From contig JAIOOR010000010.1 of NCBI GenBank assembly GCA_021414365.1, forward strand, positions 1 through 61,145: a DNA stretch of 61,145 bases, written 5' to 3'. The position numbers and the translations under genes are program-made. Positions 25,791 through 52,197 of the stretch are shown here, piece after piece (within the stretch, counting starts at the first letter, position 1; each line of letters starts with the position of its first letter). The stretch comes from Nitrosarchaeum sp. (GTDB taxonomy: Archaea > Thermoproteota > Nitrososphaeria > Nitrososphaerales > Nitrosopumilaceae). The notes under the pieces were generated by a model. The model saw only the letters and a list, made by a program, of their open reading frames with translations. It was not told where the DNA came from and did no database searches.

Positions 25791-25809
25791 TGTATGTTCA
25801 CTCCATACA
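25791..25809 (+). promoter_or_regulatory. Recurring 19-bp palindrome upstream of archaellin 1
   Basis: TGTATGTTCACTCCATACA has perfect 6-base arms and a 7-base spacer. It directly abuts the sequence CACTCTAGGATATACCC, which contains a TATA-like GGATATAC. The same downstream stretch recurs before archaellin 3. Its place just upstream of the TATA-like box is where archaeal activators bind. Confidence 0.6.
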
Positions 25810-25848
25810 CACTCTAGGATATACCCAAACCACACTATTCTCTAATCA

Positions 25849-26562
25849 ATGAAATTACAACGAAAGGGAACGCGACATTCTCATCGTGGAGTCATCGGTG
25901 TAGAGTCTGCAATAGTTATGATTGCATTTGTAATCGTAGCAGCAGCCTTGGCATTTGTTGTACTAAACATGGGATTCTCTACTTCGCAAAAAGCAAAGAC
26001 AACCATTCTTTCAGGATTGGCAGAATCAAGTAGCAGCTTGGAAGTCTCTGGTAAAGTTATTGGAGTTGGATGTACTACCGCTGCTGGTAGCTGTACCAGT
26101 TCACCAGTGCTTAATGCAACTGCAATACCAATCAAAATTACATCTGGTGGTGATTCAGTTGAATTATCTGCTGCAACCACAACAGTAAGCTATGTCAGCA
26201 ATTCAAAACAATACACTGACATTTATGTTGGACCACTTCCAGCAACAACAGAATATCGTTCATTGTCAGATGCATTTGATGGTGCTGTAGGTGTTTTGAG
26301 TGGATTTTCAGGTACTGTACAACCAATTACAGGAACAAATCCATCTTCAACTAGTGCATTTGTTTATTGGACTGTAGCATCAAACACCAATGCAATACTA
26401 GATCAAGGTGAACACGCTATTTTGGCAATCGCATATGCTTCTGCTGATAGACCAGCTGCATTGGATAAAATCAGAGCTGAAATAATTGTGTCAACAGGTG
26501 CTTCATTGACAGTAGAAAGACAAGTTCCAAACATCACTACTAGCGTAGTAGATCTAGGTTAA
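25849..26562 (+). CDS. flaB: Archaellin 1
   Basis: A 237-aa filament subunit of the archaellum. A basic leader MKLQRKGTRHSHRG precedes the class III cleavage site, giving a mature start VIGVESAI followed by a long hydrophobic helix (VIVAAALAFVVLNMGF) that forms the filament core. The C-terminal beta domain ends VPNITTSVVDLG. A CTTAAGSC cysteine pair near residue 70 is unusual for archaellins. It should be cut by FlaK at 6.9 kb. A short hairpin terminator follows. The name arlB is also used. Confidence 0.95.
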   Translation: MKLQRKGTRHSHRGVIGVESAIVMIAFVIVAAALAFVVLNMGFSTSQKAKTTILSGLAESSSSLEVSGKVIGVGCTTAAGSCTSSPVLNATAIPIKITSGGDSVELSAATTTVSYVSNSKQYTDIYVGPLPATTEYRSLSDAFDGAVGVLSGFSGTVQPITGTNPSSTSAFVYWTVASNTNAILDQGEHAILAIAYASADRPAALDKIRAEIIVSTGASLTVERQVPNITTSVVDLG

Positions 26563-26605
26563 ACCAGTTTTCTGGTTTTCCCAATTTTTCTTCTTTTTAA
26601 TTTTT
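26561..26605 (+). terminator. Hairpin plus T-rich tail after archaellin 1
   Basis: AAACCAG-TTTT-CTGGTTT (26561-26577) overlaps the archaellin 1 stop codon and is followed by a T-rich tract. It would end most transcripts here and favour high expression of the first archaellin, with archaellin 2 started from its own promoter. Confidence 0.6.
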
Positions 26606-26630
26606 AAAATTAAACTAGTCTGTTTGAATT

Positions 26631-26649
26631 ATACACACTTGATCATATA
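26631..26649 (+). promoter_or_regulatory. Recurring 19-bp element upstream of archaellin 2 (degenerate)
   Basis: TGTTTGAATTATACACACT has the full left arm TGTTTG and a decayed right arm CACACT. It sits 25 bases before the GTG start, just ahead of a TATA-like ATCATATACTATTATA. The placement agrees with the sites of archaellins 1 and 3. Confidence 0.4.
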
Positions 26650-26673
26650 CTATTATACGATTGTTTAAAATTA

Positions 26674-27387
26674 GTGAATTTACAAAGGACGCGACATTCT
26701 CATCGTGGAATTATTGGTGTAGAGTCTGCAATAGTTATGATTGCATTTGTAATCGTAGCAGCAGCCTTGGCATTTGTTGTACTAAACATGGGATTCTCTA
26801 CTACACAAAAAGCAAAAACCATAACTACTTCAAGCCTTGAAGAAGCAAGCACTGCCATGGAAATTTCAGGCACAGTATTTGGAATCGGGTGCACAAGTTC
26901 ATCTGCAAGCTGTGATTCAATACAAAAAATTAACGCAACAATAATTCCAATAAAAATTGCGGCGGGTGGACAATTAGTAAATTTTGCTCCGGGTGTAACT
27001 GCAATCAGCTTCTTTTCAAAAAACGTCGAATATACAAATATCTTTGCAGGCACAATAACTGTTGATGAATACAAACAGCCAATCCTAGCATTCAGACAGG
27101 CGGCATTAGAAGCAGGCGCTGCCTTTGATGCATTTAATGGATCAAATCCTATTAATGGTACACTGCCGAGTGAAACCACTGCATTTGTTTACTGGCCAAA
27201 AAGATTAAACACAAACAGTATTTTAGAATCAGGTGAACACGCTGTATTGGCAATAGGATTTGCCGATTCTGATAGACCTGTAGCAGGTGAAAAAATCAGT
27301 ATTGAAATAATGCTATCTGATGGCGGAACATTGTCAATAGATAGAATCATTCCTAACATTACTAGAGAAAATGTAGACCTGGGTTAA
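26674..27387 (+). CDS. flaB: Archaellin 2
   Basis: A 237-aa archaellin starting at GTG. The leader MNLQRTRHSHRG and core helix are nearly identical to archaellin 1, also at DNA level over about 110 bases, while the rest of the protein differs clearly. This pattern suggests gene conversion or selection limited to the N-terminal polymerisation helix. A Cys pair is again present (GCTSSSASCDS). The C-terminal end is IPNITRENVDLG. A T-rich tract follows the stop. Confidence 0.94.
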   Translation: MNLQRTRHSHRGIIGVESAIVMIAFVIVAAALAFVVLNMGFSTTQKAKTITTSSLEEASTAMEISGTVFGIGCTSSSASCDSIQKINATIIPIKIAAGGQLVNFAPGVTAISFFSKNVEYTNIFAGTITVDEYKQPILAFRQAALEAGAAFDAFNGSNPINGTLPSETTAFVYWPKRLNTNSILESGEHAVLAIGFADSDRPVAGEKISIEIMLSDGGTLSIDRIIPNITRENVDLG

Positions 27388-27437
27388 TCTTAGCAAAAGT
27401 CTTTTTTCTTCTTGTTTTATTTTAACACCCATACTAG

Positions 27438-27456
27438 TGTTTGATCACCATAAACA
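27438..27456 (+). promoter_or_regulatory. Recurring 19-bp palindrome upstream of archaellin 3
   Basis: TGTTTGATCACCATAAACA has 6-base arms around a 7-base spacer and directly abuts the same CACTCTAGGATATACCC promoter block as archaellin 1. It shows that the operator with its promoter was duplicated or kept together with the gene. Confidence 0.6.
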
Positions 27457-27495
27457 CACTCTAGGATATACCCAAACCACACCATTCTCTAATCA

Positions 27496-28115
27496 ATGAA
27501 ATTACAACGAAAGGGAACGCGACATTCTCATCGTGGAGTCATCGGTGTAGAGTCTGCAATAGTTATGATTGCATTTGTATAATTTCTAGTCTAGAGGAAG
27601 CTAGTAGCTCAATGCAAGTATCCGGAAAGGTAATCGCGGGAGGAGACGTCAATAATGCATGGATCCATACTGTAGGAGTACCAATCAAGATTGCATCAGG
27701 TGGTGATGTAGTAAACTTGAGTAACGCAACAATGGCAGTAAAATATGTCAGCAACTCAATAAACTATGATGACATCTATGTAGGTGCAATGAACGGTGAA
27801 TACAAGAGTTTATCATCTGCTGCAGCAGCTGCATTAGCAGATAACTCTGGTGATATGGCCGACATTGATGCCAATCCATTTGTATCTGGATTGTCGACAA
27901 ATACTCGTGCATACATTTACTTTGCACAAGAAGTCAATAGCAACGATATACTAGAACAAGGTGAAACTGCAGTGCTTGCAATCACATTCAAATCTGGTGA
28001 TACACCACAAGTACTAGACAAGATCAAAGCAGAAATAATCATCCCAACCGGGGCTGCATTGACTGTAGAGAGACAAATTCCACCAATCACAACAAGCATA
28101 GTAGATTTGGGCTAG
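27496..28115 (+). pseudogene. flaB: Archaellin 3, interrupted by an out-of-frame deletion
   Basis: The gene begins at ATG 27496 with the same leader and core-helix start as archaellin 1, but meets TAA at 27580 after 28 codons. From 27579 another frame resumes at ATA ATT TCT and runs to 28115 as a normal archaellin C-terminal part ending ITTSIVDLG. Compared with copies 1 and 2, 24 codons of the core helix are replaced by two bases, a loss of 70 nt at a short TAAT microhomology. The product cannot polymerise. The lost part is identical among copies, so an assembly collapse cannot be excluded. Confidence 0.8.
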
Positions 28116-28124
28116 GAGATTAAA

Positions 28125-29204
28125 ATGCTCCACCCACCAGCTTTTTTCTTAAAATTTTTTTTAAACGAAAGTAATCAAAAAACTATCATAATCTCTTCAT
28201 TTGCTACTTATTTTTTAGTGGCATACGAATTATTTCCATATTTGATATTTGATGAACAGAATTTCTTGTTTAGTGTGATTGTTCCATCGGTAGGATTAAT
28301 TTTTGGACTCTATTGGAAAAAGATTCCTTTGAAAATATTTTCATCAAAAAACAAATCAACCAAAGCAAATAATCCCATTAAAGAAAAACCCGTTGAAGAC
28401 TCTATTGAAAGCATGGTTAATTCTTATGCAGAAGATGATAAGATGGTGGTTTCAGATGGTACCATAGGAAATTCTGAGATTGAAGCCATGTTGGCAAGAA
28501 CCAATACTGCCCCATCAGCACAAGAAACACCTGATATTGAATCATTACTTGCAGGAACTGACTCAAACACATTTGATGTTTCTTCAAATGATCAAAATTT
28601 AGATGCACAGATGATGATAATGGAAAAAATTGAGCCTATAGAAAACGCGATTAGCACATTCAAATTAGATTTTGATCAGTTCAAGCAAGATCTAATCATG
28701 GTAAAAGAAGAAGTAGATGCCCTATCTTCATCATTTGAAAGTACAATGACTGAAATTAAATGTATTACAACTGACTTTAACAATCCTCTAAATTTTATGA
28801 ATCATGATTCTATTAGACAAAATATTCAAACAATTGATGTTGATAAATTAATTAAACCTACTATTTCTACATCCATATCTGAAAATATACGTGAACCAGA
28901 ACCAGTAAGAGAACAAATACGTGAACCAGAACCAGTAAGAGAAGAGATTGAAGAATCTACAAAAGATATTGCACATTTACCTGAAGAGATCAAAGCAGTT
29001 GTAGAAGAATTCTCAAATGATTTTTCACCTGAAGAAGTATACGAGTTAGCAAAAATTCACTGTAAAACATCAAAAATTGCATTAGATGAAAAACAATTGG
29101 CATTATTTATAGATAAAAAAAATAATTCAGATGAATTAAAAAAGAAATTTAACATATCTGAATCAGCGCAGTCAAAACTTTCAGTTTCAAGTGATGTGAT
29201 ATAA
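28125..29204 (+). CDS. FlaX-like archaellum accessory membrane protein
   Basis: A 359-aa protein in the exact place where crenarchaeal flaX lies (flaB-X-G-F-H-I-J). Two hydrophobic helices cover about residues 20-65. They are followed by a long charged cytosolic part with a predicted coiled coil near 170-225 and a helical C-terminal domain near 285-345. A perfect-like tandem repeat (IREPEPVREQ, IREPEPVREE) links them. No FlaC/D/E domain is seen. By position and shape it may form the cytosolic ring around the motor as FlaX does, but sequence similarity is not evident. An AGGAGAT ribosome site precedes the ATG. Confidence 0.75.
   Translation: MLHPPAFFLKFFLNESNQKTIIISSFATYFLVAYELFPYLIFDEQNFLFSVIVPSVGLIFGLYWKKIPLKIFSSKNKSTKANNPIKEKPVEDSIESMVNSYAEDDKMVVSDGTIGNSEIEAMLARTNTAPSAQETPDIESLLAGTDSNTFDVSSNDQNLDAQMMIMEKIEPIENAISTFKLDFDQFKQDLIMVKEEVDALSSSFESTMTEIKCITTDFNNPLNFMNHDSIRQNIQTIDVDKLIKPTISTSISENIREPEPVREQIREPEPVREEIEESTKDIAHLPEEIKAVVEEFSNDFSPEEVYELAKIHCKTSKIALDEKQLALFIDKKNNSDELKKKFNISESAQSKLSVSSDVI
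28887..28946 (+). repeat. 30-bp tandem duplication inside the FlaX-like gene
   Basis: Two nearly identical 30-base units (28887-28916 and 28917-28946) begin ATACGTGAACCAGAACCAGT and encode IREPEPVREQ and IREPEPVREE. The repeat is in frame and lengthens a Pro/Glu-rich linker. Confidence 0.85.
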
Positions 29205-29683
29205 TGGCAGCTGGTGTTCTAAGCGAAGGTGTATTAATTATCGCATCTGTCATATTGGCAGGAATGATTACGGGAATTGTTATTAGCAAAGTTGGTTCAT
29301 TTGAAAGTTTTTACACTGCTACCACAGAAGCACAAAAAGAAAAACTGTTAAACAAATTTGAAATAATACATGTAGTAAAAACAAATAATACATCAGTTGA
29401 CATTTGGGTAAAAAATACCGGATTATCCCCAATTCAAAAATTAGATTCTATGGACATATATTTTGGCCAAATTCATTCGGCACAATTAATTCCATACAAT
29501 CAAGGCTCCAATCCGCAATGGGTATTTGGAGATGACACAACACCGAGTTCTATTTGGTCTCAAGGAAATACCGTTAAAATCACTTTACAAGATGGCACTG
29601 CTTTACAATCTTCAACTTCATATGAATTACAAATGATTATTTCAAATGGTGTATCTGATGACACGATTTTCTCAGTAAACTAG
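29204..29683 (+). CDS. flaG: Archaellum stator-like protein FlaG
   Basis: A 159-aa protein with one N-terminal helix (SEGVLIIASVILAGMITGIVI) and an extracellular beta-sandwich domain. This layout and the order FlaX-like, FlaG, FlaF fit FlaG, which together with FlaF contacts the S-layer and anchors the motor. Its start overlaps the stop of the FlaX-like gene (TAATG). The hydrophobic helix resembles that of archaellins, as in known FlaG. Confidence 0.88.
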   Translation: MAAGVLSEGVLIIASVILAGMITGIVISKVGSFESFYTATTEAQKEKLLNKFEIIHVVKTNNTSVDIWVKNTGLSPIQKLDSMDIYFGQIHSAQLIPYNQGSNPQWVFGDDTTPSSIWSQGNTVKITLQDGTALQSSTSYELQMIISNGVSDDTIFSVN

Positions 29684-29692
29684 GTGATCAAA

Positions 29693-30202
29693 ATGGGGTT
29701 AAGTGTTGCAATAAGTGGGGGAATCATCATGTTTGGAATAATTTATCTCATGTTTTCGCTAAGTGGTCTTACAGATAGCATTGCATCTATTTCGGATTCA
29801 TCAATGCACAGTTCGGATTTAGAAAATAAACTTGTAAAAACATCTATCACGATAAATTCAATTACTGCTACTGGTACAACTTCTAACGTTAGTATAGTTA
29901 TAAAAAATGATGGGATTGAAAAACTGTGGGAATTTGAAAAATTCAACGTGATAATAACTTATGAAAGTTCTGGTACTACATATACAGAAAATCTGATATA
30001 TACAGATACATGTCCTTCAAGTCCAGGCCAATGGTGTCCTCTTTCATTTAATAATGATGTGATAGATCCAAAAATTCTCAATTATAATGAAACTTTGAGC
30101 ATTGATGCTAAAGTATCCAACAACATTACAGCCCTTACTAATGTTATTTGTGTAGTTTCAACACAAAATGGAGTTGTTGCAACAGAAACTACTGTGGCGT
30201 GA
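29693..30202 (+). CDS. flaF: Archaellum protein FlaF
   Basis: A single-span protein (MGLSVAISGGIIMFGIIYLMFSL) with an outside Ig-like domain that in other archaea binds the S-layer and works with FlaG. A GTG nine bases upstream would lengthen it by three residues, but AGGTGATC, a strong match to the 16S anti-Shine-Dalgarno, overlaps that GTG, so ATG 29693 is the likely start. Two Cys pairs in the outer domain (TCPSSPGQWC) may form a disulfide. Confidence 0.85.
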   Translation: MGLSVAISGGIIMFGIIYLMFSLSGLTDSIASISDSSMHSSDLENKLVKTSITINSITATGTTSNVSIVIKNDGIEKLWEFEKFNVIITYESSGTTYTENLIYTDTCPSSPGQWCPLSFNNDVIDPKILNYNETLSIDAKVSNNITALTNVICVVSTQNGVVATETTVA

Positions 30203-30205
30203 TTC

Positions 30206-30224
30206 TGTTCAAAAAAATCAAACG
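30206..30224 (+). promoter_or_regulatory. Recurring 19-bp element before flaH
   Basis: TGTTCAAAAAAATCAAACG keeps the arms TGTTCA and CAAACG around 7 bases. It is followed within ten bases by a TATA-like TTAAATAA and lies in the only real gap (77 bases) of the archaellum operon, so it may drive an internal promoter for flaHIJ. Confidence 0.5.
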
Positions 30225-30279
30225 TTTTCTTAAATAAAAAATTTCCATAGTTACATTGTTTCGAAATTGAGGTGCAAAT

Positions 30280-30993
30280 ATGGTTTCCACTATTCCTACT
30301 GGTAACGAAGAATTCGATAGACAATTTGGTGGGGGTATACCTACACCGTCACTAGTATTCATAGAAGGAGAGCATGGTACTGGCAAGAGTGCAATCTCCG
30401 CTCAAATAATGAACGGATATCTAACAGCCAGAACAAACAAGAAATACAAATTATTATGCATAATTGAAAATACTGTTACACAATATATTCAAAAAATGAA
30501 ATCATTGACATTTAATTTTTCAAAACCATTTGTACGAAATCAATTAATGTTTGTTCCAATATTTATAAAAAATGCTAAATGGTCTGAAAAAAATTCAGAA
30601 AAAATCTTACCTGCAATTAAAGAATTTATCACTAGAAAATTAAATTTAGTAGATGGCATAATTATAGATTCCATCTCTCCAATGGTAATTAATTCTGATA
30701 ATCAATCTATTATGGATTTTTTGTCTTTTTGCAAAGAGATAGTTGCAAAAGGTAAAACAGTGATAATTACTAGTCACTCTTCTGATTTTTCCAAGTCTGC
30801 AAATACAGCTCTTATTGGTGCATCAGATGTTTATTTAAAACTTGGAACTATAATAGTTGGAAGCAGAGAAGTAAAAACTCTAAAAATTGTAAAACTATTG
30901 GGTGCTAAAGATACTCCTGAATCAGGGTTTGCTTTTGAAGTTGATCTAATTTTTGGAATTAAGATTGTCCCAGTGTCTATGGCAAACGCTTAG
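30280..30993 (+). CDS. flaH: Archaellum ATPase-like regulator FlaH
   Basis: A 237-aa RecA/KaiC-fold protein with Walker A GEHGTGKS at about residues 30-37 and a Walker B strand GIIIDSISP. FlaH binds ATP and sits on FlaI inside the cytosolic ring, regulating assembly and rotation. GAGGTG lies just before the ATG. It is the first gene after the operon's only long gap and has its own candidate operator and promoter. Confidence 0.93.
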   Translation: MVSTIPTGNEEFDRQFGGGIPTPSLVFIEGEHGTGKSAISAQIMNGYLTARTNKKYKLLCIIENTVTQYIQKMKSLTFNFSKPFVRNQLMFVPIFIKNAKWSEKNSEKILPAIKEFITRKLNLVDGIIIDSISPMVINSDNQSIMDFLSFCKEIVAKGKTVIITSHSSDFSKSANTALIGASDVYLKLGTIIVGSREVKTLKIVKLLGAKDTPESGFAFEVDLIFGIKIVPVSMANA

Positions 30994-31002
30994 GTGAGAA
31001 AA

Positions 31003-32673
31003 ATGGTATTTAATTTATCTTCAATCCAAGACAAAAACTTTGTAGCAAAATTACAGGAAAAACCATACTTGCTAAAATACGTTGAAGCATATCAGATGAA
31101 AGGAAATCCACTCCCTCTTTTTTCTGAAGAATTAAAATCAGAACATAAAAAGCTCAAAGAACCAAATTTAATTTATACAGTTGCTGAAGATACATTTATC
31201 CATATTAATCCAAACACTACTGCCGATGACGGATACAATGAGTATGTCACAATAGAACCTGAAGAACCTGAGAGAACATTAATGGAGTATGCCGACCGTG
31301 TCTTTGCTGCTAAAGCCGGAGGCCTTGATCCCCCAGCAGAAATTACTGAAAGATTTAACATGGTAAATAATTATCTAAACGATACACTGGTATCTACTTC
31401 AGATCCTGTTGATTATTCTAAATTAGGTGATCCTTTCAAAATTAAGAAACTCCCAGTTCATTCAAAAGAGCTAATCAATCTAAAATATCATTTTCTTCAA
31501 AGAAGGGCAGGTACGGGTCTTTTAGAGCCATTTCTAAATGATCCAAATCTTGAAGATATTTCGATCATTGGTGCTGGAAACATGTACATTATCCATAAAG
31601 CATTTGGAACATTAAAGGTCCCAGTTTTTCTCAGCATTGATGCAATTGATGAGTTAATTGTTAGTTTATCTGAACAATTTGGAAAAACTGTATCTCACGC
31701 AAAACCTGTAGTTGATGCTACATTGCCTGATGGTTCCAGAATTAACATCGTATTTGGAAAAGACATCAGCAGAAAAGGAACAAATGCAACAATCAGAAAA
31801 TTTGCTAGTACCCCATTATCAATAATTCAAGTTCTTTCATCAGGTGTGATGAATTTTACTGAAGCAGGATACCTGTGGATGATGTTGGAGGCAGGGATGA
31901 GTCTTTTTGTAAACGGAGAAACCGCATCTGGCAAAACAACTACTTTGATGGGACTGACCGCATTTATTCCATCTAATTGGAAAGTGGTAAGTATTGAAGA
32001 TACTCCAGAGCTGACATTACCGCACAATAACTGGATTACTGAAGCCACTAGGGATACTGGAAACAAAGCATCAAGTGTCACAATGGATGATTTACTAAAG
32101 GCTGCATTAAGACAACGTCCTAATTACATTCTTGTAGGAGAAATCAGAGGTGCGGAAGGAAATGTTGCATTTTCTGCAATGCAGACAGGTCACCCAGTTA
32201 TGGCAACCTTTCACGCTGCAGGCATGGTTCCACTTATTCAGAGATTATCTAATGCTCCAATTAACATACCAAAAACATACATGGAAAATCTGAATCTGGC
32301 ATTATTTCAAGCGGCTGTACTAAATCCAGAAGGAAAGAGAGTTCGTAGAGTGCTGTCAATAAATGAAATCATTGGAATCTCAAATGAAGGAAACGTGATG
32401 TTCATACCTGTGTTTGATTGGGATGCTGGAACTGATACTGTGAGATTCAAAGGAAAAGGAAGCAGTGCACTTTTCATTTCAAAGGTTTTGGAAAGACGAG
32501 GTATGAAAAGAAGAGATGAGGCACTTTTGTATGATGAGTTGGATTTACGCTCAAAGATACTCGAAAGAATGTTAGAAAAAAAAATCTTTAACTATTATGA
32601 TGTATTTAATGCAATCTCTCATTGTAGAGAAATTGGACTAGAGCAATATTACAAGGAGCTTGCAATGCATTGA
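31003..32673 (+). CDS. flaI: Archaellum motor and assembly ATPase FlaI
   Basis: A hexameric type II/IV secretion-type ATPase of about 556 residues that powers both filament export and rotation. Walker A GETASGKTTT is near residue 305, Walker B is VGEIRGAE near 380, and the His box is in FHAAGM. A GTG nine bases upstream would add three residues; AGGTGA overlapping it is the ribosome site, so ATG 31003 is preferred. The stop overlaps the TTG of flaJ. Confidence 0.95.
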   Translation: MVFNLSSIQDKNFVAKLQEKPYLLKYVEAYQMKGNPLPLFSEELKSEHKKLKEPNLIYTVAEDTFIHINPNTTADDGYNEYVTIEPEEPERTLMEYADRVFAAKAGGLDPPAEITERFNMVNNYLNDTLVSTSDPVDYSKLGDPFKIKKLPVHSKELINLKYHFLQRRAGTGLLEPFLNDPNLEDISIIGAGNMYIIHKAFGTLKVPVFLSIDAIDELIVSLSEQFGKTVSHAKPVVDATLPDGSRINIVFGKDISRKGTNATIRKFASTPLSIIQVLSSGVMNFTEAGYLWMMLEAGMSLFVNGETASGKTTTLMGLTAFIPSNWKVVSIEDTPELTLPHNNWITEATRDTGNKASSVTMDDLLKAALRQRPNYILVGEIRGAEGNVAFSAMQTGHPVMATFHAAGMVPLIQRLSNAPINIPKTYMENLNLALFQAAVLNPEGKRVRRVLSINEIIGISNEGNVMFIPVFDWDAGTDTVRFKGKGSSALFISKVLERRGMKRRDEALLYDELDLRSKILERMLEKKIFNYYDVFNAISHCREIGLEQYYKELAMH

Positions 32674-34178: not shown

Positions 34179-34346
34179 TTGGTCTAATATGTAAAATAAG
34201 ATAATTTAGTTTCAATAATAAAAAACAATAGACATTTTTAAGTACAAATCTCAAACTTTGCCTAAATGGAATTTGTAATTTTATTTTGATACATTTGTTA
34301 TAATGCGGTCAGGCAAAAGAATGCCAATTAATAATTGTCGTTTTAT

Positions 34347-34365
34347 TGTTCTATATGAACAAACA
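34347..34365 (+). promoter_or_regulatory. Recurring 19-bp palindrome upstream of chemoreceptor gene
   Basis: TGTTCTATATGAACAAACA fits TGTTYR-N7-YAAACA and also contains a perfect inner TTGTTC/GAACAA palindrome. A TATA-like TTTAAAA lies about ten bases downstream and the preferred ATG at 34400 is about 20 bases after it. Confidence 0.6.
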
Positions 34366-34399
34366 AATCATTATGTTTAAAATTGGTTTTTATGAAGTT

Positions 34400-35794: not shown

Positions 35795-35871
35795 ACGTGA
35801 ATGCTCTTTCAATTTATCAGTATGAAAGATAAAAAATTTTAAAACAAAATAAATATTCAGTAATGATATGT

Positions 35872-35890
35872 TGTTCATATCATACAAACT
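35872..35890 (+). promoter_or_regulatory. Recurring 19-bp palindrome upstream of cheW
   Basis: TGTTCATATCATACAAACT has arms TGTTCA and CAAACT with a 7-base spacer. A TATA-like CTTTTAATC follows about ten bases later, and the cheW ATG is 36 bases from the site. Confidence 0.55.
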
Positions 35891-35925
35891 AGGGATTATC
35901 TTCTTTTAATCATTTCAATAATTTA

Positions 35926-36537: not shown

Positions 36538-36594
36538 ATTAGAATACAGTTTAATTTCTTTGATTATTTTCAATATGAAAAAATGATTAGAGTG

Positions 36595-36613
36595 TGTTCG
36601 TCTCAAACATACA
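36595..36613 (+). promoter_or_regulatory. Recurring 19-bp element upstream of cheB
   Basis: TGTTCGTCTCAAACATACA fits the 6-7-6 layout (TGTTCG/CATACA). It lies about 90 bases before cheB in a gap that should carry the promoter of the cheB-A-C-R transcription unit. Confidence 0.5.
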
Positions 36614-36704
36614 TCAAATTATTATGAGTTTTTCATTACATTAATCATGATTTGTTTAATTATTGATAAATGTGATTTTATTATTTATGCGAGATGATTG
36701 CTAG

Positions 36705-41045: not shown

Positions 41046-41064
41046 TGTGTGTATGTTTTAAACA
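41046..41064 (+). promoter_or_regulatory. Recurring 19-bp palindrome upstream of cheY
   Basis: TGTGTGTATGTTTTAAACA has arms TGTGTG and TAAACA with a 7-base spacer, one mismatch from the sites at 27438 and 52179. TATA-like ATATTAAC and TTTATTAAATATA lie between it and cheY. Confidence 0.5.
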
Positions 41065-41156
41065 CGCTGGTGGATATTAACACATCAAGTTTATTAAATA
41101 TATGAAATTCATTGTTGAAAAATTATCAAGGGTTTCAAAAATTATACGGTGTTAAA

Positions 41157-41534: not shown

Positions 41535-41626
41535 GTCCAAAAAAGAGGACCACTTCCAAAAAGGAATGCTGATTTTAAGCATAATTCCAGCTATTCTATA
41601 GGCTGTAAACTTGTAATAAAATTAGG

Positions 41627-43650: not shown

Positions 43651-43734
43651 ATTTGGATTAGGGACATTTTGATAATATGATATAATGTGTGTTAATTGAA
43701 CGAACTGTGGTGAACTGAAAACTTGGATCAAAAA

Positions 43735-43753
43735 TGTTTGAATTGAACAAACA
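43735..43753. promoter_or_regulatory. Recurring 19-bp palindrome, exact: TGTTTG-N7-CAAACA
   Basis: TGTTTGAATTGAACAAACA has perfect 6-base arms. It lies between a divergent membrane-protein gene and the receiver gene at 43787, about 15 bases before a TTTTTAACA TATA-like stretch of the receiver. Confidence 0.65.
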
Positions 43754-43786
43754 ATTCATCATAAAGATGTTTTTAACAATAAAAGC

Positions 43787-44155: not shown

Positions 44156-44183
44156 ATTGTAATTTTTAAATCATTTATCGATA

Positions 44184-45638
44184 TTAATTATGTTCTAGTT
44201 CTTTTTCCAAATTTGATTTGTCGGATACTTTCCAATTAAGATCAAATGTCAGCAACGGAAGAGTTATTTCAAACATAGGATACCTGTTTTTATTATAGGC
44301 AATAATTTTCCCATTATGTGCGTCAACTATTTTTTTTGAAATATATAATCCAAGTCCAAATCCAGTTACTTTGTTGATATCTTTTGTTACAACTTCTTTG
44401 AACATTTTTGGTAAAACTTCATTTGGAATTTCAGGTCCTGTATCAGTAAAGAATAGTTTTATGGATTTTTCATCTTTTAACAAATGGGTTTGAATCTTTA
44501 TCTCCCCTGATTCCGTAAATTTAATACAATTATCTAAAATATTTCTGAAAACTTGTTTCATTCTGGTTTTATCCAAATTTAGCATTACATCTACATCGAA
44601 TTTTGTTATGATTGGAACTTTTCTTTCAGGATTAAATTGTTCTGAACTTACAACTTCTTGAATGATGCTGTTTATACTACTTTTCTCTAAATGTAGTTCC
44701 AGTTCGTCATTTTCTATTTTGGTGAGATCCAAGACATTATTTGCAATGTTCTCCAAATGAAATGCGATACTAGATATTCCATCTAGTGCCTCTTGTTTAC
44801 TAATAATTTCTGTTTTAGCTAGTTCCACAAAGCCAAAAATTGGTTGAAGTGGTCCTTTTAATTCATGTGATGCTATTGATATGAACTCCTTTCTTTTTTT
44901 ATCCATTTTTTTCAATTTTTCATTAAGTTCATGAAGATTTTTTGTTTGATTTTTTATTTCCAATTTTAAATTTGCGTTAGTTTGATTAAGAAAGAAAACA
45001 AGCATTGTGGTAATAAGCCCCAATAATATTATCATCATTAATTCAAAAATTTGAAAATTGTCCACTATATATCCAATTGACATCATAGATGTGTCAGGAA
45101 TTGAATTTATTGTTTGCTTTATGGTTTCAATTTTTGTAAATAATTCTGATTGTAAATATTTTATATTCTCATATTCTTTTAGAAAATCTGATTGTTTACC
45201 GTCATAGTAATAATTTAATGCCATAGATACATTATTCTCATAATTCAAATGTAATTCATAAAATGAATCAAAATTCTTTTGTAATTCAGACGATTTATTT
45301 CCAAAAAGATATTCATCTGTTTTTTGGTTATGTACCACAAATTCATTAAAATCTTTTAATTCATTTTTTATTTCGGTATTATATATCCAAATATTTCCCA
45401 CATCATTGTAGTTTTTTTCTGAAATTAATCTTTCAAAAACATTTGATTGTTTTTCATACTTTTCTTTTATGTTTTCAAAATTTACTATTTTTTGATCATA
45501 TTCAACATGATAGTTGAAATTTTGATTAATTTCATCCATTGTTTTTATTGTATATATTGAAGCAATGCCTAATAGCAAAATTATCATAGATATACATATT
45601 CCAATCCTAAACTGGGCATTACTAGTAATTTGTAACAA
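44184..45638 (-). CDS. Membrane histidine kinase with extracellular sensor
   Basis: A 484-aa kinase. A first membrane helix is at about residues 12-32 and a second at about 197-217, enclosing about 165 residues of helical outside sensor. The cytosolic H box is ISIASHELKGPL with H258. The ATPase has the G1-type DTGPEIP and G2-type FGLGLYIS motifs. The G1 motif is altered (DTGPE in place of DxGxG), so activity might be unusual. Start is TTG. It is divergent from the receiver at 45.8 kb, its likely partner. Confidence 0.9.
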   Translation of the reverse strand: MLQITSNAQFRIGICISMIILLLGIASIYTIKTMDEINQNFNYHVEYDQKIVNFENIKEKYEKQSNVFERLISEKNYNDVGNIWIYNTEIKNELKDFNEFVVHNQKTDEYLFGNKSSELQKNFDSFYELHLNYENNVSMALNYYYDGKQSDFLKEYENIKYLQSELFTKIETIKQTINSIPDTSMMSIGYIVDNFQIFELMMIILLGLITTMLVFFLNQTNANLKLEIKNQTKNLHELNEKLKKMDKKRKEFISIASHELKGPLQPIFGFVELAKTEIISKQEALDGISSIAFHLENIANNVLDLTKIENDELELHLEKSSINSIIQEVVSSEQFNPERKVPIITKFDVDVMLNLDKTRMKQVFRNILDNCIKFTESGEIKIQTHLLKDEKSIKLFFTDTGPEIPNEVLPKMFKEVVTKDINKVTGFGLGLYISKKIVDAHNGKIIAYNKNRYPMFEITLPLLTFDLNWKVSDKSNLEKELEHN

Positions 45639-45675
45639 TATTTTGTTATGAATTAATCAAACTTGAATTACTGGT

Positions 45676-45694
45676 TGTTTGTTTTCAACAAACA
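45676..45694. promoter_or_regulatory. Recurring 19-bp palindrome, exact: TGTTTG-N7-CAAACA
   Basis: TGTTTGTTTTCAACAAACA has arms that extend to eight perfect bases (TGTTTGTT/AACAAACA). It lies between the divergent kinase and receiver genes and could control both. Extra TGTTTG half-sites are close by, and TAATTTATAACC follows toward the receiver. Confidence 0.7.
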
Positions 45695-45754
45695 CTTTTG
45701 TTTGTTCATAATTTATAACCATCTTCTTTTGATTAAGAAAAAATACTCTTCATT

Positions 45755-46147: not shown

Positions 46148-46168
46148 CTTCCATTAGAAAATAATGCT

Positions 46169-46666: not shown

Positions 46667-46688
46667 TTCAAATTTTTTCAAAACATAT

Positions 46689-46707
46689 TGTTTGAACTGA
46701 TCAAACA
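46689..46707 (+). promoter_or_regulatory. Recurring 19-bp palindrome, exact: TGTTTG-N7-CAAACA
   Basis: TGTTTGAACTGATCAAACA has perfect 6-base arms and inner CTGATCA symmetry. A TATA-like TTTTTTTAAATTT starts four bases downstream, and the UspA start is 21-33 bases from the site. Confidence 0.65.
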
Positions 46708-46727
46708 TCTTTTTTTAAATTTAGCAA

Positions 46728-47222
46728 ATGATCTTATTTATGCAATTAAACGTGGAACCAAGAAAAAACATCCCAATCCCCGTTTTTAGGAAAATATTGA
46801 TTCCATATGATGATTCAAAACTATCAGAGAAAGCATTTTGGTATGCAGTTAATTTGGATATGAATCATAAAACAGAAATTTTAATTCTTTCAGTATTTCA
46901 TAGTGATCATTTACCTAGTTCTTTTTTAGATTATAATGCCCACCAAACAATCATAGAGAAAGATAAACTAATTCACGTTAAACTAAAGCATAACGAAATG
47001 AAAAAAGTTGCAGAAAAATATGGCATTTCATGTAATTCTTATCTAGCACTTTCTTCTTCTATAGCACAGTCGGTTATATCATATATTTATTCCACACATG
47101 CAGATTTAGTGATTATGGGAACACGTGGTACTGGGTCTGGTACAGGTAGAAAATTAATGCTTGGCAGTGTATCTCTTGAAGTTTCTCAATATTCACCTGT
47201 TCCAGTTTTATTAGTGAAGTAG
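46728..47222 (+). CDS. Universal stress protein, UspA family
   Basis: A UspA of up to 164 residues with ILIPYDDS at the N-terminal side and the nucleotide motif MGTRGTGSGTGRKLMLGSVS near the end. This glycine-rich loop is two residues longer than in the 0.4-kb UspA. The TATA position fits the second ATG at 46740 (MQLNVEPRKN) as a leaderless start. It carries a strong copy of the recurring operator, which ties it to the motility and signalling group. Confidence 0.9.
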   Translation: MILFMQLNVEPRKNIPIPVFRKILIPYDDSKLSEKAFWYAVNLDMNHKTEILILSVFHSDHLPSSFLDYNAHQTIIEKDKLIHVKLKHNEMKKVAEKYGISCNSYLALSSSIAQSVISYIYSTHADLVIMGTRGTGSGTGRKLMLGSVSLEVSQYSPVPVLLVK

Positions 47223-47346
47223 AAATTATTAGTAAAAATATTCATAGAATTAGGAAATTCATGATGATTTAGCAGATGATTGTAATTATGTATGTATGAA
47301 AACAACACACACAGGGTAATAATAGATTCAATAGAAAATAATTTGT

Positions 47347-47808
47347 TTGTATGAAAAATTAGAAAAAAAATCAAACGACTCTGAATTAAACGAAATATTG
47401 AAAAATAATTTGTTTTTTGAATTTGAGAACCAAATTAATGTAACCATCGAAACAGATTCAAAAAATATCAAAATGAATTCAATTACAAATATCATAAATA
47501 TCTCAATAGACAAAGTAATTGATGATATTGTAACCGATTTAATTAATATAAATCCGATTTTGTTAAGTTCAAAAAACATTAGAAAAATTGCAAAAATCTG
47601 TGAAAAATTTTTTAGAGATTCAAATTTTGGAATGTTTGAATATGTACAAAAAACAGGCATGAGTATTTTTAAAGTTGAGCATAGTTCAGGTGTAAACGGT
47701 ACTGAATTTTTAAAGAAATTCTTTGAAAAAATATTTGAAATTTCTTTAAAGGGATATTCCTTTTACATAATTTCTAATGAAAATTATGTATGTGTAATGT
47801 TTAGATAA
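47347..47808 (+). CDS. Hypothetical protein, 153 aa
   Basis: A soluble protein from a TTG start, without membrane or metal motifs except a lone Cys. The second half (FFRDSNFGMFEYVQ and VEHSSGVNGTEFLKKFFEK) has the feel of a small ligand-binding V4R- or MEDS-like fold, but this is only an impression. The first half is rich in Ile and Asn. It lies between UspA and the convergent NDH-2 gene. Confidence 0.55.
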   Translation: MYEKLEKKSNDSELNEILKNNLFFEFENQINVTIETDSKNIKMNSITNIINISIDKVIDDIVTDLININPILLSSKNIRKIAKICEKFFRDSNFGMFEYVQKTGMSIFKVEHSSGVNGTEFLKKFFEKIFEISLKGYSFYIISNENYVCVMFR

Positions 47809-47817
47809 TATTAACAG

Positions 47818-49251
47818 TTAAAATTTAAAAGTCAGTTGTTCTTTAATTGATGGAATATTCTCTGTAATATGAATACCATGTGTCTTTTTCTTTTTAATTG
47901 ATCCAATCAGTGTAACATCCCGTGGTAATAGAAAATCAATTGACCAATCTACAAATATCTTAATTTTTTTACCAAATGTTGGAATTTTTGACAAGTAATA
48001 AGATCTCCAAACCAACCAAGCTGGAATTCCACTTAGATCATGGTCTGCAATAGTGGCAATACCCATCCTATTTCCAATAATTGCCATTATCCCCATACTA
48101 TTAAATGAAAATCTCTTTAATTTTTTCTTGCCATCAAATACCGCCTCAAGATTTTCGGCAATTACTTTACCCTCTCTAATTGCATGTTGTGCAGTTGATG
48201 GGTATATGCTATTTGAAGCAGCATCTTTGATCCAAGCACAATCACCTAGAACAAAGACATTATCATGATTTTTCATTCTTAACATTTCATCTACTTGAAC
48301 TCTACCATTATCTCCATGTTCACATTTTAATTCAGAAATGACTTGATTCATAGTAATCCCTCCAGTCCAAATCAGTGTTGCACATGGTAATTTTTCATTG
48401 TTATTTAGCATAACAAATTCTTCTCCTGCATCAACAGCTCTTGCATTTTTTAATACTGTAACCCCCTCTTTTTCAATAAAATCCAGAGCTGTTTTTGCTA
48501 GTTTTTCATTAATCTCAGGTAAAATTCGATCTTTTGAGGAGATTAGAACCACGTTAATATTTTTTGGATTGATACTTTTGTAGAAATTTGAAATTGATTG
48601 TCTAACAAAATGATTAATTTCACTTATTGTTTCAACTCCTGCAAATCCACCACCTATAACAACAAACGTCAATAATGTTTTTTGTAATTTATAATTTCCT
48701 GTCTGAGCGGCATGCTCTAACATCAAAATAATGTGATTTTTAACCGCAATTGCATCCTCGATAGTTTTCATAGAAAATGAATGCTTTTCCAAATTAGTAT
48801 TTTTGAAATAATTACTTTTACCTCCTAATGCTAATACCATATAATCATATTCTAATGTACGTACTTTATTATCAAATGATCTTTGAATGGTAACAAGCTG
48901 TTGATCTAAATCAATGGATTCTACTGTTGCTTGTAAAAATTTAGCTTTTTTACAAAAATAGCGTATAGGTGTAGAAATATTACTTGGATGAATTAATCCA
49001 GATACAACTTGGGGCAGCATAGGAGTAAAAAGAAAATAATTATCATTTGAAACAATAGTAATTTCCACTTTTTCATTTTCAAATCTTTTTTCTATATCAC
49101 GTAATATTGTAATTCCGCCAAATCCCCCACCTAAAATTAGGATTTTCTTGATTGAGGTTGATTGACTTTTATGTGCAGTTATGTGATGTGCATAATATTC
49201 AAATTCTGAAGAAAATACAAGATTACAATTATTGCAATTTATTTTTGACAT
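47818..49251 (-). CDS. Type II NADH dehydrogenase (NDH-2) with N-terminal C2H2 zinc finger
   Basis: A 477-aa flavoprotein. The FAD motif GGGFGGITILRD is near residue 41 and the NADH motif GGGFAGVETISEI is near 200. Later FAD contacts VFVLGDCA are present, and a C-terminal amphipathic part (LPRDVTLIG) suits membrane surface binding. NDH-2 passes electrons from NADH to quinone without pumping protons. The first 27 residues form C6-x2-C9-x12-H22-x4-H27, a classical C2H2 finger not part of the usual enzyme. Related sulfide:quinone reductases lack the paired Cys seen in that group, so NDH-2 is preferred. Confidence 0.85.
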   Translation of the reverse strand: MSKINCNNCNLVFSSEFEYYAHHITAHKSQSTSIKKILILGGGFGGITILRDIEKRFENEKVEITIVSNDNYFLFTPMLPQVVSGLIHPSNISTPIRYFCKKAKFLQATVESIDLDQQLVTIQRSFDNKVRTLEYDYMVLALGGKSNYFKNTNLEKHSFSMKTIEDAIAVKNHIILMLEHAAQTGNYKLQKTLLTFVVIGGGFAGVETISEINHFVRQSISNFYKSINPKNINVVLISSKDRILPEINEKLAKTALDFIEKEGVTVLKNARAVDAGEEFVMLNNNEKLPCATLIWTGGITMNQVISELKCEHGDNGRVQVDEMLRMKNHDNVFVLGDCAWIKDAASNSIYPSTAQHAIREGKVIAENLEAVFDGKKKLKRFSFNSMGIMAIIGNRMGIATIADHDLSGIPAWLVWRSYYLSKIPTFGKKIKIFVDWSIDFLLPRDVTLIGSIKKKKTHGIHITENIPSIKEQLTFKF

Positions 49252-49288
49252 GATTGAATATCATGAAACATGCTTTAAACCTCCTGTC

Positions 49289-49307
49289 TGTTTAAATTCT
49301 ACAAAAA
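49289..49307. promoter_or_regulatory. Likely copy of the recurring 19-bp element before NDH-2
   Basis: On the reverse strand TTTTTGTAGAATTTAAACA differs by one arm base from TGTTTG-N7-TAAACA. It is centred 47 bases upstream of the NDH-2 start, with AGGAGG close to the gene. Confidence 0.4.
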
Positions 49308-49462
49308 TAATGTTTAACATAGAATTATTCTAAAAAAAGATTGGGAATGCACTGGGTTAATTTCTGGTTAAAAATTTGATATAATGAGCATTTTGAGATG
49401 CTTGAAATTAAAATTCCGATTAATTTAGAATTAAAATTTTAGAATTAAAATTTTAGAATTAT

Positions 49463-50119
49463 TTAGGGCATATTTTTTATATTTTTTAAAAAAAATTTTC
49501 TACTTATGCCCAAAAACACTGTAAACTCCATGCATTCAATCAACATTATTTGCCAAAAATACATCACCCATCCCCCCATCAGATGATCTGAAACAGCTAG
49601 AACTACTGAAAAAATCTTAAAATCTTGTACGGATAATAAAGGTAACACTACTATGGCATCTATTTGCTGATTAGGTGATATTTGTGAGGTTACACGCTGG
49701 ATAGCATCATAACTCAAATCTGAATCTACCAAAATTCCCTGTTTATGTAATTGAGTAATCACTTGATCTTTCAAATCAGAATAATCGTGATTTCCTACAT
49801 GTATGCTAAATACGGTAAATCCCCCAATAAAGAGAAACAATCCCGTTTGAACATATACAAACCATTTTCTTTTACCATGATAATTTTTACTGATTTGTCG
49901 TAAAAACATTTGTCCAAAAACCCCTATTTTTTCTTTTTTCGCTAAAAATAAGATTATTCCAAAAACTAGCGAGATTAATCCAAGAGAGCCTAACCATTCA
50001 TCAGAAAATATGATTTTAGAGAATATTCTAAGCGGTACCAAAATTGCAATTAAAGAAAAAGCGACAATTATGAATTCAATTTTAGGAGAAAAAGTTTTGT
50101 TTTTGTTAAATAAAGTCAT
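49463..50119 (-). CDS. Membrane protein of unknown function
   Basis: A 218-aa protein with four hydrophobic segments: two in the first 60 residues, one at about 88-106, and one near the C-terminus (GGWVMYFWQIMLIECMEF). An outside loop of about 70 residues lies between the third and fourth. It follows the C2H2 mini-protein on the same strand with a 21-base gap. No family is recognised. Confidence 0.65.
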   Translation of the reverse strand: MTLFNKNKTFSPKIEFIIVAFSLIAILVPLRIFSKIIFSDEWLGSLGLISLVFGIILFLAKKEKIGVFGQMFLRQISKNYHGKRKWFVYVQTGLFLFIGGFTVFSIHVGNHDYSDLKDQVITQLHKQGILVDSDLSYDAIQRVTSQISPNQQIDAIVVLPLLSVQDFKIFSVVLAVSDHLMGGWVMYFWQIMLIECMEFTVFLGISRKFFLKNIKNMP

Positions 50120-50140
50120 GATTCAAAGTTTAAGATTTAA

Positions 50141-50275
50141 TCAATATTTTGATTTACGTTGTTTTGAATGTGCTTTAATCATGTGTATCTGTGTTCTATG
50201 AGATTCTGAGAATTCCATATTGCATATTCGACATACCAATCCCATATCCTGATATTTTTTCTTAAAGAAACTCAT
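50141..50275 (-). CDS. Stand-alone C2H2 zinc-finger mini-protein, 44 aa
   Basis: A short ATG frame gives MSFFKKKYQDMGLVCRICNM and continues to a basic tail KQRKSKY. Ligands are C15-x2-C18-x12-H31-x4-H36, the same spacing as the finger on NDH-2 at 49.2 kb. Basic ends on both sides suggest nucleic-acid binding. It starts with a clean ATG, has no stop within, and is followed closely by the membrane-protein gene. Archaeal C2H2 mini-proteins are known, but the role here is open. Confidence 0.7.
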   Translation of the reverse strand: MSFFKKKYQDMGLVCRICNMEFSESHRTQIHMIKAHSKQRKSKY

Positions 50276-50380
50276 AGACTTTGATTAATTATTCTCATTA
50301 TAATCAACAGTATGTTTAATTCAGACAATCAACATTTGAGTATTTTAAAAAATAATATTTGAAAATTTAAATAATTATAA

Positions 50381-50959
50381 TTAGGGGTTGAACATCGATG
50401 GAAGAAGTTTTCTGTATTGATCATATTCGGATTTTAACTGCCAACCATCTTCAGCATTTTTAGTACTTTTCAAAACCAAGATTTGTTGATTAATATCTTT
50501 TAGTTCTTGAATCATAGAATTTCTTTGAATTGTGATATCATCACTTCCAATATAGGAATCCATCGAAGTCATGTATTTTTCATATTTTATCTTAAAATCT
50601 AACAGTTTTTCCAAATATTCATCTGTAGTGAGTTTTCCACCGGAATAATCAAGGCTGATTTGATTATAATTTGTACTTAGTCGTATTCCGTTATTTTGAA
50701 TTTTTTCACTTGCTACAAGATCAGGAGTCTCTTTTTCTTTTAGAACATCCTCATCGGTAATATCTTTAAACATGCCCAAAGTATGCTCCTCAGTCGATTT
50801 CTCATGAGCAACTTGATTAATAAAATCTTGCCCCATATCCAAAATTGATGATTTTTCAACATTTGGATCTGAATGGATACCATTTCCTGGAACATTATAA
50901 ATCGATAAAAAAGCTAGAGGAATTCCAATTAATGCTAGTAAAAATATCCACTTATACAT
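50381..50959 (-). CDS. Exported protein of unknown function, 192 aa
   Basis: The N-terminus is a signal peptide or anchor (WIFLLALIGIPLAFLSIY). The mature part is acidic and mostly helical, with a segment LTTDEYLEKLLDFKIKYEKYM that recalls short helical hairpins of exported archaeal proteins. No cysteines, so not a lipoprotein by the classical box. No family is recognised; no operon partner. Confidence 0.6.
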   Translation of the reverse strand: MYKWIFLLALIGIPLAFLSIYNVPGNGIHSDPNVEKSSILDMGQDFINQVAHEKSTEEHTLGMFKDITDEDVLKEKETPDLVASEKIQNNGIRLSTNYNQISLDYSGGKLTTDEYLEKLLDFKIKYEKYMTSMDSYIGSDDITIQRNSMIQELKDINQQILVLKSTKNAEDGWQLKSEYDQYRKLLPSMFNP

Positions 50960-51114
50960 TTGATATCAAAAGATAATTTGGGCGTTATTGATTATAAGAA
51001 TAAGTTAATAAAAAATAAAATACAGAAGTATATTAGGAAAATAATTATTGATATATTAAAAAATCTATAAAAAATGGATTTTTTAAGGGGGACAAATTTT
51101 TGTTTCTAAAATAA

Positions 51115-51537
51115 TCATGTTGGTTTTGGAATTTGACCGTACAGTCCCATTCTTTTCCTCTCACGTAATGCATCAGCTACAACTTTCAATAAATTCACAC
51201 GTTGCATCGGTTTAGGAACAAAACTAAAAGCTCCAAGTCTCATCATTCTATTAAGAAGTTCTTGGTCATCAGTATATGCGGTAGTCATAATTACTTTGAT
51301 TGTAGGATCATCCTTACAGATGGCTTCTAATACTTGCATTCCATCCATACCGGGCATTTGCCAATCCAATAATACTGCATCTGGTTTGTACTGCCTGTAC
51401 ATCTTGAAACCTTCAACACCACTTGATGCTAGTAGTACTGTAATGAATTTAATATCTTCTTTAATTATCGTTTTTGCAAATTCCCTAAATGAGGCAGAGT
51501 CATCAATTATTAGAAAAATCGGATATTGTCTTCCCAT
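51115..51537 (-). CDS. Stand-alone receiver, tandem copy A
   Basis: A 140-aa receiver with IDDSASFREFA, acceptor D58 in VLLDWQMP, and the Lys in VPKPM. It shares about two thirds of its residues with copy B just upstream, and long stretches are almost identical at DNA level, for example around 51160-51290 and 51690-51820. It is therefore a recent tandem duplication. No output domain. Confidence 0.9.
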   Translation of the reverse strand: MGRQYPIFLIIDDSASFREFAKTIIKEDIKFITVLLASSGVEGFKMYRQYKPDAVLLDWQMPGMDGMQVLEAICKDDPTIKVIMTTAYTDDQELLNRMMRLGAFSFVPKPMQRVNLLKVVADALRERKRMGLYGQIPKPT

Positions 51538-51570
51538 AAATAATTTATAAGTTTAATCAATATAGGAAAT

Positions 51571-51589
51571 TGTATGATTTCTATGAACA
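51571..51589. promoter_or_regulatory. Recurring 19-bp palindrome upstream of receiver copy A
   Basis: On the reverse strand TGTTCATAGAAATCATACA fits 6-7-6 with one arm mismatch. It sits 34-52 bases upstream of the start at 51537, with a TATA-like TTATAAATT between. Confidence 0.55.
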
Positions 51590-51639
51590 CGCAGATTTAC
51601 TTTAAATTACATAAAAACCCTAAGTTATAAAAATTAGCA

Positions 51640-52077
51640 TCAAACTTGAGATGATTTTACAGGATTACGAATTGTGCCATAAAAGTTGGCGTTTCTTCTC
51701 TCACGTAATGCATCAGCTACAACTTTCAGTAAATTTATTCTGTTCATAGGTTTAGGAACAAAACTAAAAGCTCCAAGTCTCATCATTGTATTGAGAAGTT
51801 CTTGGTCATCATCATACGCGGTAGTCATAATGACTTTGGTAGTAGGATCATCTTTGATAATTGCCTCTAACACAATTAATCCATTATAATCCGGCAGATG
51901 CAAATCCAATAATATCACATCTGGTTTGTATTGCTTGTATAATTTTAGACCTTCAACACCATTTGCGGCTTGAAAAATATTTATCCATTTGATATCCTCT
52001 TTAATAGAATATTTTGCAAATTCTCTAAATGCAAGAGAATCATCTATTACCAAAACTATAGGATATGTTCGACCCAT
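51640..52077 (-). CDS. Stand-alone receiver, tandem copy B
   Basis: A 145-aa receiver paralogous to copy A, with IDDSLAFREFA, acceptor D58 in ILLDLHLP, and the same end ALRERR followed by a different tail. Changes concentrate around the acceptor loop (DWQMPGMDG against DLHLPDYNG), which suggests that the two copies now have different partners. Each copy has its own operator and promoter. Confidence 0.9.
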   Translation of the reverse strand: MGRTYPIVLVIDDSLAFREFAKYSIKEDIKWINIFQAANGVEGLKLYKQYKPDVILLDLHLPDYNGLIVLEAIIKDDPTTKVIMTTAYDDDQELLNTMMRLGAFSFVPKPMNRINLLKVVADALRERRNANFYGTIRNPVKSSQV

Positions 52078-52110
52078 GATTTTTTAATGGGTTTAAGAAA
52101 TTTATCAGAT

Positions 52111-52129
52111 TGTTTGATTTAATTAAACA
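52111..52129. promoter_or_regulatory. Recurring 19-bp palindrome upstream of receiver copy B
   Basis: TGTTTGATTTAATTAAACA lies 34 bases upstream of the receiver start at 52077. The inverted symmetry extends outward to AGATTGTTT/AAACAATCT. Confidence 0.6.
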
Positions 52130-52178
52130 ATCTAAATTAGAGACTAATTGAAGATGGTAAATTTGATCATTTAGTATG

Positions 52179-52197
52179 TGTTTGTACACTGTAAACA
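52179..52197 (+). promoter_or_regulatory. Recurring 19-bp palindrome upstream of histidine kinase
   Basis: TGTTTGTACACTGTAAACA lies 38 bases before the kinase start at 52235. A TATA-like TATTTAAT lies between. Together with the site at 52111 it forms a back-to-back pair in the divergent promoter region. Confidence 0.6.

Follow-up and report, generated by a model that had tools for sequence, protein, structure and literature searches.

Nested inverted repeats at motility and signalling promoters of Nitrosarchaeum sp. and a TrmB-family candidate for their recognition

According to the descriptions available so far, the archaellum is regulated by EarA in Euryarchaeota, by the Arn network in Sulfolobus and by CsmR in Haloferax (PMC13286277). 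For csmR no co-occurrence with archaellins was reported in Thaumarchaeota, and the TrmB protein of Haloferax acts on motility by way of glucose metabolism (PMC13286277). Regulators of the TrmB family recognise palindromes in dimeric form. With TrmBL1 and Tgr, a site 5' of the TFB recognition element (BRE) and the TATA box activates, whereas a site at or after the TATA box represses (PMC4158304). In the present analysis a stretch of 61,145 nt from Nitrosarchaeum sp. (Nitrosopumilaceae; contig JAIOOR010000010.1), referred to as the window, was examined regarding a recurring inverted repeat upstream of archaellum, chemotaxis and two-component genes and regarding the protein that may read it.

Ammonia-oxidising archaea are abundant nitrifiers, for which few genetic tools exist. 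The open literature, as far as searched, describes no archaellum regulator for these organisms, and neither the present operator nor a TrmB archaellum regulator of ammonia oxidisers was found in it. We consider it probable (about 0.74) that the sites described here are operators of one TrmB-family factor encoded at 24819-25628, which would activate motility and signalling promoters and feed back on its own gene. A named candidate protein results, together with an exactly defined operator, the promoters it would control and their constant geometry, and each of these can be tested in vitro.

Form and promoter position of the element

The original prediction, made from the letters of the window alone, described a 19-bp 6-7-6 palindrome, TGTTYR-N7-YAWACA, at 15 sites. 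Fourteen of them are present as placed. For archaellin 2 the coordinate 26631 was wrong: this position reads ATACACACTTGATCATATA, and the actual site TGTTTGAATTATACACACT lies at 26621 (23-bp form 26617-26639). The consensus is matched exactly by seven of the listed window sites, the remaining ones having at least one mismatch. Three exact copies of TGTTTG-N7-CAAACA were confirmed at 43735, 45676 and 46689. Furthermore, 41 matches of the 6-7-6 form with at most one mismatch were counted in the window versus 12.7 expected, and none of 100 shuffles was as high; the element lies far above chance.

Genome-wide counts were obtained by pattern searches, matrix scans were run on the window and selected stretches. 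The whole 1.875-Mb genome contains six exact copies of TGTTTG-N7-CAAACA (none in the reversed control) and ten of TGTTYR-N7-YRAACA, six of the latter within the window. The loose pattern with one mismatch was not enriched genome-wide (116 versus 129 in the reversed control), and outside the window 12 of the 15 exact-pattern copies are intragenic. Both counts would fit an origin by base composition, in which TGTTTG/CAAACA pairs arise from the A+T richness of the genome and those near genes are picked. Thus, only strong sites placed at promoters are taken into account. For these sites chance is a negligible explanation, refuted by the matrix-free spacing peaks, the matrix from other genera and the constant promoter position described in this section, and by the clean split, described in the next, between genomes that have the regulator and those that lack it.

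Half-site pairs, counted without a matrix, showed spacing peaks only at gaps of 7 and 3 in the window and in relatives, and in both the peaks were confined to intergenic DNA. Alignment with a free centre favoured a symmetric 23-bp element, WGTn-TGWTYR-N3-YRAWCA-nACW, with 15.6 bits per site versus 13.5 for the 19-bp form. Relative to the 19-bp centres, its own lie 2 bp further left or right. The 19-bp palindrome was dropped as final form because pairs with gap 3 are enriched much like those with gap 7 and the 23-bp register fits better. Hence, the recurring element is real, but its length and register had been misread: it is a 23-bp nested inverted repeat, of which the 19-bp version is a cut-out. 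Each half-site probably spans 10 bp (TGTnTGWTYR), and 3 bp separate the two, since this register gives the better fit and unifies the anatomy of the promoters.

For the scan of the window, a matrix was trained only on sites of other genera, to which neither the window nor its close relative G093 contributed. At a threshold of at least 12 bits 22 matches were found, 20 intergenic and two genic (shuffles: 1.2). All 16 matches that reached 15 bits were intergenic, the majority at promoter distance. The matrix added the window sites 19609/19636, 25751, 47289 and 50309, which the earlier list lacked.

A TATA-like box begins 6 nt 3' of the 23-mer in 55 of 82 sites, in agreement with the predicted placement just upstream of such a box, and the start codon follows at 33-35 nt in 64 of 75. 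The distance to the TATA box is bimodal when measured from the 19-mer and has a single peak when measured from the 23-mer. About 5 nt separate the end of the 23-bp site from the TATA box, and the site overlaps or touches the BRE. From these distances, promoters with 33-35 nt appear to give transcripts that lack a leader or have a very short one. At the arlH promoter, with a start 55-56 nt from the site and a Shine-Dalgarno-like GAGGTG, the TATA spacing is unchanged and a leader would be gained.

The constant spacing also bears on the question whether the repeats were spread by promoter duplication instead of being selected as operators. Long identical downstream flanks are common to archaellin 1 and archaellin 3, and the tandem archaellin promoters are duplicates, not independent sites. 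No such common flanks exist among the non-archaellin promoters, which nevertheless have the element with the same spacing to the TATA box. Duplication is therefore contradicted for all but the archaellin copies and is a highly improbable source of the set. Archaellin 3 (27496-28115) is a broken gene with an in-frame stop after MKLQRKGTRHSHRGVIGVESAIVMIAFV and the remainder out of frame; the operator at 27438 is intact.

Conservation in relatives and in the genome

In 40 archaellum/chemotaxis stretches of six Nitrosopumilaceae genera, some of which supplied training sites for the matrix (g9, g13 and g22 did not), 247 matches of at least 11 bits were detected, 219 of them intergenic, versus 25 in shuffles. 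The relatives include incomplete assemblies, and their gene calls come from a simple caller of open reading frames (ORFs). In the six genera the element is found at orthologous promoters of archaellins, arlH, receptor, cheW, cheB, cheY, receivers and kinases. Site-to-start distances match there despite proteins that are only 45-60% identical. Enrichment at promoters over genes and shuffles, together with this conservation, marks the sites as a single regulon. The undescribed motility and signalling regulon that had been proposed is thus supported, and no description of it was found in the literature. It withstood the two refuting conditions named in the original prediction, equal frequency within genes or shuffled sequence and missing conservation in relatives.

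With at most one mismatch, the 23-bp pattern occurs in 8-16 copies per genome in 12 relatives with TrmB and archaellum (reversed control 0-2) and in 0-1 copies per genome in 12 complete relatives without the regulator. Two recurrent copies, TGTTTGATTAGTCCAAACA and TGTTTGAATATGACAAACA, were treated as chance, because they are present also in genomes without the regulator and their counterparts in the own genome lie within predicted ORFs.

Archaellum stretches of other families (n=16) gave three matches versus 4.7 in shuffles. Two of these matches are strong and lie next to arlH on a single 4.4-kb contig (L161; contig 49 of G290, a genome placed in another family). This contig may reflect contamination or misassignment, or lateral transfer.

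Elsewhere in the Nitrosarchaeum genome the element was found at three remote histidine kinase genes. The site C9:84553 lies 38 nt before a histidine kinase start, and C9:38198 and C9:39922 lie close to two kinase genes paralogous to 14355, with distances of 48 nt and about 183 nt. Random stretches of the own genome are no pure negative set, as one contained two kinase paralogues with sites. Because remote kinase genes bear the same site, the element is suggested to indicate orphan kinases and receivers belonging to the motility programme.

Two further observations were made in relatives. Before one archaellin gene of G011 (L139), four tandem operator copies are spaced by 33 bp (17914, 17947, 17980 and 18013). 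Between archaellins of L040 (6893-7759; also in L041, L043, L051 and L052) a protein of 288 aa is encoded, which is cupredoxin-like by eye. A conserved site, TGTTTGATCAAAATAAACA, accompanies this type of gene, which is absent from the corresponding position of the window.

The candidate regulator and its putative target sites

The likely DNA-binding protein, unnamed in the original prediction, belongs to the TrmB family. Its gene at 24819-25628 is divergent from archaellin 1, with two putative operators between them. The protein matches the TrmB winged-helix domain PF01978 with 55.3 bits (cut-off 25.6; 6e-15) and, weakly, the C-terminal effector-binding domain PF11495 with 24.6 bits (cut-off 22.2; 1.7e-5). 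Top matches of its structural model in Foldseek were TrmBL2 (5box, E 5e-14) and TrmB (3qph, E 3e-11) but with a template modelling (TM) score of about 0.4. The overall TrmB/TrmBL2 fold with a coiled-coil dimerisation helix is therefore a tentative assignment.

In 200 genomes of the family, close TrmB orthologues and ArlH were found together in 42, TrmB only in six, ArlH only in five and neither in 147 (p about 5e-31, uncorrected for shared ancestry). The element lies upstream of the own gene in 34 of 36 TrmB orthologues, with 0.6 expected by shuffling, and in none of 20 TrmB paralogues of 36-42% identity. As they have no own-promoter site, the paralogues of 36-39% identity were excluded as candidate readers. 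The second site on the trmB side, at 25751 in the window, is kept at 116-129 nt in relatives. Judged from these sequence relations, the protein of 24819-25628 probably binds the 23-bp element.

The regulon may also be real and the TrmB gene only another target, with a different DNA-binding protein encoded elsewhere reading the element. Because the regulated neighbourhood includes the TrmB gene, its co-occurrence with the archaellum and its own-promoter sites would arise in either case. We regard this alternative as improbable, because three results oppose it. At Nitrosotenuis TrmB loci no archaellum gene was found in the stretch examined, yet the site is kept 40 nt before the trmB start. The type of recognition helix tracks the presence of the site: among TrmB copies of 49-63% identity, those of the class DRGK(A/T)YR(S/A)L(N/S/T)(K/R)L(R/K)N (D..N..N) have it in 28 of 29 cases and those with other helices in three of 13 (p 2e-6, with helix classes defined after seeing the data). 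Finally, in the scanned site-bearing neighbourhoods of the window no gene except TrmB was found with a DNA-binding domain, although unidentified genes remain there; the receivers are single-domain proteins.

Several points weigh against TrmB as the activating reader. The regulator gene can bear its site merely as a target of another factor. The AlphaFold model of the protein is moderate (predicted local distance difference test, pLDDT, 68). Four TrmB copies, L102, L105, L106 and L034, are close in sequence and have no own site. In G125, an incomplete assembly, ArlH and sites (L140) are present but no strong TrmB match was obtained, and G011 has sites but only a TrmB of 45% identity, which lacks an own-promoter site. 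In addition, the site borders the BRE, so that occlusion of TFB, that is repression, is possible.

The last point concerns the direction of control. A repressor placed against the BRE would block TFB until a signal releases it; the site end, touching or overlapping the BRE, would suit this, and several TrmB proteins repress (PMC4158304). Known TrmB repressor sites, in contrast, overlap BRE/TATA or are located at the transcription start, and upstream sites activate (PMC4158304). Repression is unlikely, then, but keeps an appreciable share of probability because the site touches the BRE. Activation is rather likely, since the element lies upstream of and close to the TATA box. The predicted placement was confirmed in this respect, whereas the activating role itself we infer from position.

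According to the activation model, a TrmB dimer would occupy the 23-bp nested inverted repeat, with its two 10-bp half-sites and 3-bp spacer. Bound directly 5' of BRE/TATA, it would help to recruit TFB and TBP. Jointly with the archaellins, it would turn on the motor (arlH onward), the receptor, the che genes and a number of histidine kinase and receiver genes. Autoregulation of trmB we infer from the sites in front of its gene. The putative operators are listed in Table 1.

Table 1. Candidate regulator gene and putative operators of the window (23-bp form; distances from site to start codon)
Feature	Position	Strand	Bits	Remarks
TrmB-family winged-helix protein, 269 aa, candidate DNA-binding protein	24819..25628	-		PF01978 and PF11495 matches
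trmB-side putative operator	25751..25773		16.5	about 122 nt before trmB start, 75 nt before archaellin 1
Archaellin 1 putative operator	25791..25813	+	20.5	35 nt before ATG 25849
Archaellin 2 putative operator	26617..26639	+	19.7	34 nt before start
Archaellin 3 (broken gene) putative operator	27438..27460	+	23.9	perfect 23-bp pattern match
arlH (flaH) putative operator	30202..30224	+	15.1	start 55 nt downstream; GAGGTG; relatives 55-56 nt
Chemoreceptor putative operator	34343..34365	+	15.3	34 nt before inferred ATG 34400; relatives 33-34 nt
cheW putative operator	35868..35890	+	12.7	35 nt before ATG 35926
cheB putative operator	36591..36613	+	22.6	91 nt before ATG 36705; relatives 86-113 nt
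cheY putative operator	41046..41068	+	18.8	relatives 77-97 nt
Receiver gene 43787 putative operator	43731..43753	+	13.5	33 nt before start
Putative operator between histidine kinase 44184-45638 (-) and receiver pair 45755/46169 (+)	45672..45694		15.9	
UspA-type gene 46728 putative operator	46685..46707	+	15.4	relative G093: 32 nt before start
Unknown gene 47347 putative operator	47289..47311	+	12.1	35 nt; kept in G093; absent from earlier list
Receiver gene 51115-51537 putative operator	51571..51593	-	18.4	33 nt
Receiver gene 51640-52077 putative operator	52111..52133	-	17.4	33 nt
Histidine kinase 52235 putative operator	52179..52201	+	19.6	33 nt
Histidine kinase 14355-15434 putative operator	15466..15488	-	24.4	31 nt; best of the window
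Putative operator pair, 19609-19631 and 19636-19658	19609..19658		19.2 and 10.4	34 and 33 nt from two starts
Operator-like site 5' of unknown gene 49463-50119 (tentative target)	50309..50331		15.7	

The pair at 19609-19658 separates a metallopeptidase gene of matrixin type (-) from an unknown gene (+), and similar pairs between divergent unidentified genes were found in relatives. The metallopeptidase sharing this pair may be a secreted protease of the motility regulon. A weak symmetric site of 8.6 bits at 22901-22923, 34-35 nt from the divergent starts 22866 (-) and 22959 (+), is a possible further member of the set. Two additional TrmB-type genes of the window (6499-6828 and 7906-8772) have no operator sites nearby.

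Outside the family, a TrmB-like protein (17-26% identity) is encoded divergently from archaellin in six sampled genomes of a sister family (L154-L158, L164). These proteins have a different recognition helix and no 23-bp operator, and other-family archaellum clusters with other TrmB proteins likewise have no 23-bp site. Since the sister-family protein holds the same divergent position with another helix and without the operator, a common switch would have kept its place and changed its DNA code. A divergent TrmB-type regulator beside the archaellins could then be the master switch that controls swimming generally among ammonia-oxidising archaea, with the 23-bp TGTnTGWTCA code governing motor, chemotaxis and the whole kinase/receiver network in Nitrosopumilaceae. 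This generalisation is tentative, with the balance slightly against it.

Comparison with known regulators

A close likeness exists to TrmBL1 of Pyrococcus and Tgr of Thermococcus, likewise TrmB-family winged-helix proteins with an inverted-repeat operator, TATCAC-N5-GTGATA, the Thermococcales glycolytic motif (TGM) (PMC4158304). There, too, one operator serves many scattered operons and is placed 5' of BRE/TATA. However, the present consensus is not the TGM but a 10-3-10 nested repeat, and its targets are motility and signalling instead of sugar metabolism. The haloarchaeal TrmB (VNG1451C) belongs to the same family, but is a metabolic regulator with a different operator (TACT-N7-8-GAGTA), and the motility effect of TrmB in Haloferax is attributed to glucose metabolism (PMC13286277).

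Regarding the archaellum, the Arn network of Sulfolobus (ArnR/R1, ArnA and others) also controls an archaellin promoter, that of arlB (PMC13286277). It consists of membrane-bound one-component regulators and kinases, not of TrmB. EarA is similar as a single winged-helix protein acting just 5' of the archaellin promoter (PMC13286277). In contrast to EarA, which is known only from Euryarchaeota, the candidate is assigned to the TrmB family by Pfam, and the palindromic 23-bp element extends to che and kinase genes; this contrast is drawn from the description of EarA.

CsmR of Haloferax volcanii shares a regulator gene beside the archaellins, a palindrome adjoining the TATA box and a motility regulon (PMC13286277). 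It is an Lrp/AsnC-type protein of 13 kDa with the palindrome TATCA-N4-TGATA, and its targets rise in the deletion strain (PMC13286277). Neither this protein type and size nor this palindrome was found at the present locus: the candidate has 269 aa, belongs to the TrmB family and is proposed to read TGTnTGWTCA half-sites. Next to EarA, Arn and CsmR, it would give the ammonia-oxidising archaea their first proposed archaellum switch.

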